A stretch of 64,000 bases of DNA from Leptotrichia trevisanii DSM 22070 (GTDB taxonomy: Bacteria; Fusobacteriota; Fusobacteriia; Fusobacteriales; Leptotrichiaceae), in the NCBI RefSeq assembly GCF_000482505.1, contig NZ_AXVL01000005.1, positions 62,001 through 126,000 of the forward strand, given 5' to 3'. The stretch's first letter is position 1, and each line of letters opens with the position of its first letter. A model generated the notes under the pieces. The model saw nothing but the letters and a program-made list of their open reading frames with translations, searched no databases and was not told the origin of the DNA. Below are positions 3,086 to 3,513 of this stretch, one piece after another. A program made the translations under genes and the position numbers.

Positions 3086-3130
3086 GAAAAAATTGAGAAA
3101 CATTAAAATCTATTGTATTTTTTTTTAAAG

Positions 3131-3168
3131 TAAATAATAAAACCCACTGGCTAGCAGATAAACCAGTG
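3131..3168 (-). terminator. Probable terminator of the small-peptide transcript
   Basis: Read on the minus strand, CACTGG and CCAGTG pair across a 12-base loop and are followed by GGTTTTATTATTT. It lies 35 bases beyond the stop of the 23-residue peptide gene. The 6-bp stem is short, so strength is uncertain. Confidence 0.5.
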
Positions 3169-3202
3169 AGCATAAGGTAGAAAGGAGATTATCAAGTGCC
3201 GA

Positions 3203-3274
3203 CTATCTTTGACGGCTAAAAATCAAAAATAGAACGATTATAACCAGCAAAATAGCCCAGTCTTGATTAATCAT
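3203..3274 (-). CDS. 23-residue hydrophobic peptide, candidate type I toxin
   Basis: The gene is too short for ordinary gene calling but is well equipped. The ribosome site TGGAGGTG sits 7 bases before ATG, and a consensus promoter lies 57-65 bases upstream. The peptide starts MINQDWA, continues with an uninterrupted 13-residue hydrophobic run (ILLVIIVLFLIF) and ends SRQR. This architecture, a short polar N-terminus, one membrane span and a basic C-terminus, is that of type I toxins (Ibs, Fst and TxpA classes) and of small holin-like peptides. Inverted repeats bound the unit on both sides. No antisense promoter could be assigned with confidence. It could instead be a small membrane-complex subunit. 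Toxin function is inference. Confidence 0.55.
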   Translation of the reverse strand: MINQDWAILLVIIVLFLIFSRQR

Positions 3275-3337
3275 CGTTACCACCTCCAATCTGTGTGAAA
3301 CTGTCTAAAAGGCTTGTGAAACCTTTTTGACTTGCTT

Positions 3338-3366
3338 ATTATATCATAAAAAAAATCCCTGCTCAA
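3338..3366 (-). promoter_or_regulatory. Promoter of the small hydrophobic peptide gene
   Basis: On the minus strand TTGAGC and TATAAT are separated by 17 bases, a near-consensus housekeeping promoter. Transcription would start near 3331, giving a leader of about 57 bases. The -35 region lies inside the loop of the inverted repeat at 3348-3387. Confidence 0.7.
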
Positions 3367-3387
3367 TTAAGAACAAGGATTTTTTTT
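3348..3387 (+). terminator. Strong hairpin with T-run on the plus strand
   Basis: AAAAAAAATCC pairs with GGATTTTTTTT over an 18-base loop. On the plus strand it would stop a transcript just after it had crossed the whole small-peptide unit, the position expected for the end of an antisense antitoxin RNA. The structure is directly visible; its role is inferred. Confidence 0.6.
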
Positions 3388-3513
3388 CACAAATTTATAA
3401 AAAATTCCACACAGATTGTTTTTTATATGAAAGTATTATAACATTTTTTTCAATTTTATTCAATGCCTATTTTTTGTTTTGGGAAATTTAAACTTTTTAA
3501 TATATTTAAAGTG

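Follow-up and report, generated by a model that had tools for sequence, protein, structure and literature searches.

A candidate type I-like toxin-antitoxin unit in Leptotrichia, with the small RNA and toxin genes in tandem on one strand

Small hydrophobic toxins of the Fst/Ldr (par of pAD1) and TxpA/BsrG groups occur on plasmids and chromosomes and are controlled by an RNA antitoxin with its own terminator; this antitoxin overlaps convergently from the opposite strand. In AapA/IsoA and hok/Sok the antisense RNA also overlaps, it contacts a loop of the toxin mRNA, and the mRNA undergoes 5'-3' closing. In the enterobacterial pairs TisB/IstR-1, ZorO/OrzO, ShoB/OhsC, DinQ/AgrB and TimP/TimR, the toxin is a tiny single-span membrane peptide, and an adjacent, non-overlapping gene with its own promoter and terminator encodes an sRNA with a short stretch complementary to the 5' UTR of the toxin mRNA; the sRNA gene is transcribed divergently from the other strand (PMC4147584, PMC7667032), and its product binds within a long 5' UTR, not at the ribosome site. 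In general, type I antitoxins have been described as encoded on the opposite strand, either overlapping or divergent (PMC12390103, PMC4147584, PMC7667032, PMC10767807), and the type I search of TADB 3.0 requires the toxin gene and the antitoxin RNA to be on opposite strands (PMC10767807). According to a 2025 paper on Microcystis, type I systems had previously been found only in Proteobacteria, Firmicutes and Tenericutes, to which Cyanobacteria were added (PMC12390103). Candidates for type III (ToxIN) systems have been reported in Leptotrichia (PMC8040213).

The locus between hem and pheS

The unit considered here is situated on the minus strand of the window, that is, the whole analysed stretch of 64,000 nucleotides from Leptotrichia trevisanii DSM 22070 (genome assembly of 2.85 Mb in 78 contigs). 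It is flanked by pheS on one side and on the other by a hem gene whose product is predicted to be a fused uroporphyrinogen-III methyltransferase/synthase. An earlier note, made from the sequence of the same stretch, placed in this gap a gene for a 23-residue membrane peptide with a promoter, a strong ribosome site and hairpins on both sides, and the present analysis recovered all of these as well as the position between hem and pheS. The peptide, MINQDWAILLVIIVLFLIFSRQR, is encoded from the ATG at 3274–3272 to the stop codon at 3205–3203, although the list of open reading frames calls its start at an upstream TTG. The features, in the order of transcription, are as follows.

3435–3463, minus strand: P1, promoter of the sRNA, TTGAAT-17-TATAAT with a TG extension; the extended -10 was placed at 39 of 39 loci
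3348–3428, minus strand: predicted antitoxin sRNA of about 80 nt, the start deduced from P1 and the end from the T8 run; z = -5.6 for its 3' terminator hairpin
3405–3418, minus strand: site A of the sRNA, CAATCTGTGTGGAA, complementary to the part of the leader beside the Shine-Dalgarno (3300–3287); 16 pairs with A' if extended by two bases
3385–3393, minus strand: site B of the sRNA, TTTGTGAAA, complementary to the loop in the 5' hairpin of the toxin mRNA; B and B' covary from type to type
3348–3387, minus strand: intrinsic terminator of the sRNA, holding the -35 of P2; compensatory stem changes across 18 types
3338–3366, minus strand: P2, promoter of the toxin, TTGAGC-17-TATAAT with a TG extension; the -10 is near-invariant and comes straight after the T-run in the alignment
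3142–3331, minus strand: predicted toxin mRNA of about 190 nt, deduced from P2 and the 3' terminator
3303–3331, minus strand: 5' hairpin of the toxin mRNA, fold z = -3.7; compensatory pairs across types
3321–3314, minus strand: site B', TTTCACAA, in the apical part of the 5' hairpin
3287–3300, minus strand: site A' of the leader, TTTCACACAGATTG, abutting the Shine-Dalgarno and single-stranded in the predicted leader
3280–3287, minus strand: Shine-Dalgarno, GGAGGTGG; the purine-rich site is conserved across loci
3203–3274, minus strand: peptide ORF, the toxin candidate, 23 aa with a single hydrophobic span and a basic tail
3172–3202, minus strand: 3' UTR with a stretch able to pair with the Shine-Dalgarno, a possible 5'-3' lock
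3142–3171, minus strand: intrinsic terminator of the toxin mRNA, seen in the sequence

The same order on one strand, namely P1, an sRNA of about 80 nt, its terminator, P2, and the toxin mRNA with its 5' hairpin, Shine-Dalgarno, ORF and terminator, is common to all 39 measurable loci. The distance between P1 and P2, measured by a script, is 89–113 bp at these loci, and nearly all -10 elements are extended. P1 and the terminator, both belonging to the sRNA itself, are conserved across loci, the -35 of P2 lies in the loop of this terminator, and P2 directly follows its T-run at the loci located by the script (n = 39). P1 had been overlooked in the earlier note, as had two complementarities between 3428–3348 and the peptide leader. 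Rfam models gave no match in the window.

The peptide belongs to an unannotated family, near and distant copies of which are present in 12 of 13 Leptotrichia genomes, with up to about eight per genome and some in tandem, and the family is also found in another genus of the Leptotrichiaceae (G022); weak matches in other Fusobacteriota (E > 0.01) were left out of the counts. Plasmid copies, unannotated there, are carried by pJCM16775-3 of L. hofstadii (5.4 kb) and pJMUB3934p3 of L. wadei (7.9 kb). The family members are 21–24 aa long, with the best 15-residue hydropathy mostly at 2.5–3.5. Since pN/pS is 0.35–0.39 in three subgroups, the peptide is under purifying selection, and by sequence comparison it is confirmed as a real gene, beyond chance. 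The earlier impression that the peptide is unlike any toxin that can be named held up in Pfam, NCBIfam and PADLOC, where searches up to E 10 gave no relevant match (Fst/Ldr, TxpA-like, Hok, TisB, Ibs or other named type I toxins); solved structures yielded nothing relevant, and a phage collection contained no match. The hem–pheS gap is occupied in four of the 13 genomes, the other nine having no unit there; the unit is not a fixed resident of this site, and the peptide has no fixed neighbour.

Pairing of the small RNA with the toxin leader

The sRNA is complementary to its own toxin mRNA at two places, beside the Shine-Dalgarno (A:A') and at the 5' hairpin loop (B:B'). Folded alone, the leader forms the hairpin followed by single-stranded A' (z = -3.7), and in this model A', situated downstream of the hairpin, would be ready for binding. 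The pairing comprises 8–16 pairs at site A and about 5–9 at site B, with sequences differing by type; in some relatives the site A pairing covers the start codon.

The loci were sorted by leader sequence into 18 types. The mean duplex energy is -29.6 kcal/mol for the sRNA with its cognate leader and -14.5 kcal/mol for non-cognate combinations, none of 20,000 permutations reached the observed cognate sum, and the cognate duplexes are far below those of shuffled sequences. The own leader is preferred by 17 of the 18 sRNAs, the exception (L040) being a broken copy closest to another type. With the Shine-Dalgarno excluded (15 types), the cognate and non-cognate values are -28.0 and -11.3. Complementarity of the antitoxin RNA to the toxin mRNA, which defines type I systems, is thus seen across the 18 types as cognate duplexes and two-sided covariation, and judging by these sequences the two-site pairing has been rewritten on both sides between types.

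As a control, we considered streptococcal Fst-like loci and further Firmicutes genes for short hydrophobic peptides, found by the same promoter–Shine-Dalgarno pattern, and these have no strong same-strand complementarity. A scan of the GTDB genome collection with the DNA pattern produced 94 stretches; outside Leptotrichia, none of those with a short hydrophobic ORF showed strong same-strand complementarity.

The hem–pheS site itself offers a comparison of orthologs. The type CAATCTGTGTGG is present in the window and in L. hongkongensis (G008), and CAATCACGAGG in the genomes of two other species (G009 and G010). Between the two, A, B, the terminator, B' and A' have all changed together and in a matching manner, whereas only a few bases distinguish the ORFs, and P1 and the 3' UTR have hardly changed. 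The site thus presents a natural specificity swap.

Proposed mechanism and alternatives

Taken together, the sequences make it very probable that this is a type I-like toxin-antitoxin unit, with the sRNA and toxin genes in tandem on one strand and the sRNA acting in trans. A type I system had already been suggested for the locus in the earlier note; the type I-like reading is the best supported one, but the antitoxin gene shares the strand of the toxin gene and precedes P2. We infer the following course of events. P1 would give the short sRNA, ending at its terminator, and P2, with the -35 within this terminator and the -10 after its T-run, would give the toxin mRNA. Acting in trans, the sRNA would use site B to contact the hairpin loop at the 5' end of the mRNA, and site A to pair with the unpaired leader segment next to the Shine-Dalgarno (the start codon being covered in some relatives); ribosome loading would thereby be blocked. 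Once the sRNA is gone, for instance when a plasmid copy has been lost, the presumably toxic peptide would be made and inserted into the membrane. Each type would have its own, insulated specificity.

The full-length mRNA may in addition be partially locked by its 3' UTR. In folds of the whole mRNA the mean probability of pairing between the Shine-Dalgarno and the 3' UTR is 0.69, compared to 0.45 with the stretch shuffled (the highest of 60 shuffle sets giving 0.58), and this pairing is missing in four to five of 17 types. The anti-Shine-Dalgarno strength in the 3' UTR alone is mostly no better than in shuffles, and only the whole-mRNA fold gives an effect at the level of the set; the lock is hence a possible, set-level trend.

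The earlier note had instead proposed an antisense RNA from the plus strand, convergent on the peptide gene and ending at 3348–3387. Type I systems of Gram-positive bacteria usually show such convergent overlap, and the hairpin does look bidirectional, with a T8 run on the plus strand as well as at 3355–3348 on the minus strand. However, no conserved promoter was found on the plus strand: downstream of the ATG, the best match is at the shuffle level for nearly all 18 types and its position varies. Moreover, the hairpin is accounted for by its role in terminating the same-strand sRNA, which covaries strongly with the mRNA, and the minus-strand T8 is its meaningful T-run; judging from sequence, we regard the convergent RNA as highly improbable. 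Because the antitoxin is a same-strand sRNA, absence of an antisense transcript would be a false negative for a toxin-antitoxin system. The same-strand layout also makes it possible for A:A' and B:B' to pair inside one long read-through transcript from P1, yielding a self-silenced mRNA or an attenuator, and since the order A-B-terminator-B'-A' is perfectly nested, such a transcript would fold on itself. Yet P2 stands between the pairing arms at all measured loci, its transcript contains neither A nor B, a strong terminator precedes it, and there is no conserved core of the ligand-binding kind, all of which makes a purely cis-acting leader quite unlikely. The two modes can coexist, with read-through in cis serving as a safety for the sRNA in trans.

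The sRNA could also control a non-toxic small protein, a regulator or a member of a membrane complex. The peptide is a putative toxin, single-span peptides of 23 aa can serve as subunits or regulators, and one copy (G000 C12) persists without its own sRNA. Against this stand traits of the addiction type, namely the variable copy number, tandem duplicates, plasmid carriage, the mostly empty hem–pheS site, decay of the toxin with the sRNA kept, insulated type-specific pairing, and the lack of a fixed neighbour; we consider a non-toxic role unlikely.

If the type I-like unit is compared with the described systems, it shares with the TisB/IstR-1 group the single-span peptide, the adjacent sRNA gene with its own promoter and terminator, and the short antisense to the 5' UTR. 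It differs in that the sRNA gene is upstream on the same strand and the pairing is beside the Shine-Dalgarno, and family models of these toxins do not match the Leptotrichia peptides. The likeness to Fst/Ldr and TxpA/BsrG extends to the toxin, its occurrence on both plasmids and chromosomes, and the terminator of the antitoxin; in contrast to Leptotrichia, the Fst-like control loci lack same-strand complementarity, and the Leptotrichia peptides have no Pfam match. The loop contact and a possible 5'-3' closing, the lock being weakly supported here, recall AapA/IsoA and hok/Sok, but the sRNA is non-overlapping and on the same strand. Type III systems also have an RNA antitoxin gene, a terminator and a toxin gene on one strand; there, however, a repeat RNA binds a nuclease protein, whereas here RNA pairs with RNA and the product is a 23-aa peptide. 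A ToxIN-like identity was ruled out, as there is a single sRNA with no tandem repeats and no nuclease.

Among RNA-controlled toxin-antitoxin systems, the tandem on one strand appears to be a new arrangement. As the sRNA and the toxin are on the same strand at 39 of 39 loci and the TADB 3.0 pipeline demands opposite strands, the Leptotrichia family may have been missed so far, and same-strand systems may be overlooked elsewhere for the same reason. No account of a type I system from Leptotrichia or Fusobacteriota turned up in the open-access literature; as far as could be checked, this is the first type I-like system in the phylum, the priority being not certain since the search covered open-access papers only. 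If the assignment is true, Fusobacteriota joins the phyla with type I systems, with up to about eight copies per genome, and the 18 specificity types with a coherent swap at one site provide a ready-made system for studying divergence and insulation of RNA toxin-antitoxin pairs.

Decayed copies, a second peptide and atypical loci

In four copies (L040, L070, L078, L216) the toxin ORF or its start is broken and the sRNA is intact. The reverse is seen in G000 C12, where the toxin is intact and its own sRNA has been replaced, together with the -35 of P2, by an IS91-like insertion; the IS91-like transposase gene adjoins the toxin copy (L082 804–1190, G000 contig 12). A strong toxin should not tolerate loss of the sRNA, and this is the sole observation awkward for strong toxicity. 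The window sRNA with a leader of the same type as that of G000 C12 gives -17.2 kcal/mol, and it may cross-protect against this toxin copy.

An apparently unrelated 23-aa peptide, MVRLVIKILFFILIFLLLARLTF, has the same tandem sRNA–terminator–promoter–toxin layout in another genus of the Leptotrichiaceae (G028), with about four copies (G028:C1:3231–3299, seen in L229 and L232, and further ones). Its sRNA segment TAAACGAACCATA is perfectly complementary, over 13 nt, to the region of the start codon. The common layout points to an architecture of general use, not confined to a single family. Hence we think it likely that the Leptotrichiaceae possess a distinct architectural class, defined by the tandem on one strand, the toxin promoter inside the antitoxin terminator, swappable type-specific two-site pairing, and at least two apparently unrelated peptides.

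Several loci deserve separate mention. Two units of different specificity are arranged in tandem 375 bp apart in L026 (G009 C1 1650920 and 1651295). A new type, MVRDWLVILLAIVIFYFVFQQNK, is found in L228 784–940 with a recombinase-like gene nearby, on a small contig that is possibly a plasmid (G003 contig 4, 8,150 bp). L079 and L081, apparently at the same place in two genera, encode the peptide MINRDFLVFIILVVILTFWFNRTK behind a P2-like promoter, with no recognisable 5' part of the sRNA. Finally, the intergenic segment 2939–3110 of the window (plus strand), which follows hem, has further copies in the genome with 84–88% identity (e.g. L100), and in other species this repeat is also found close to some of the toxin copies.
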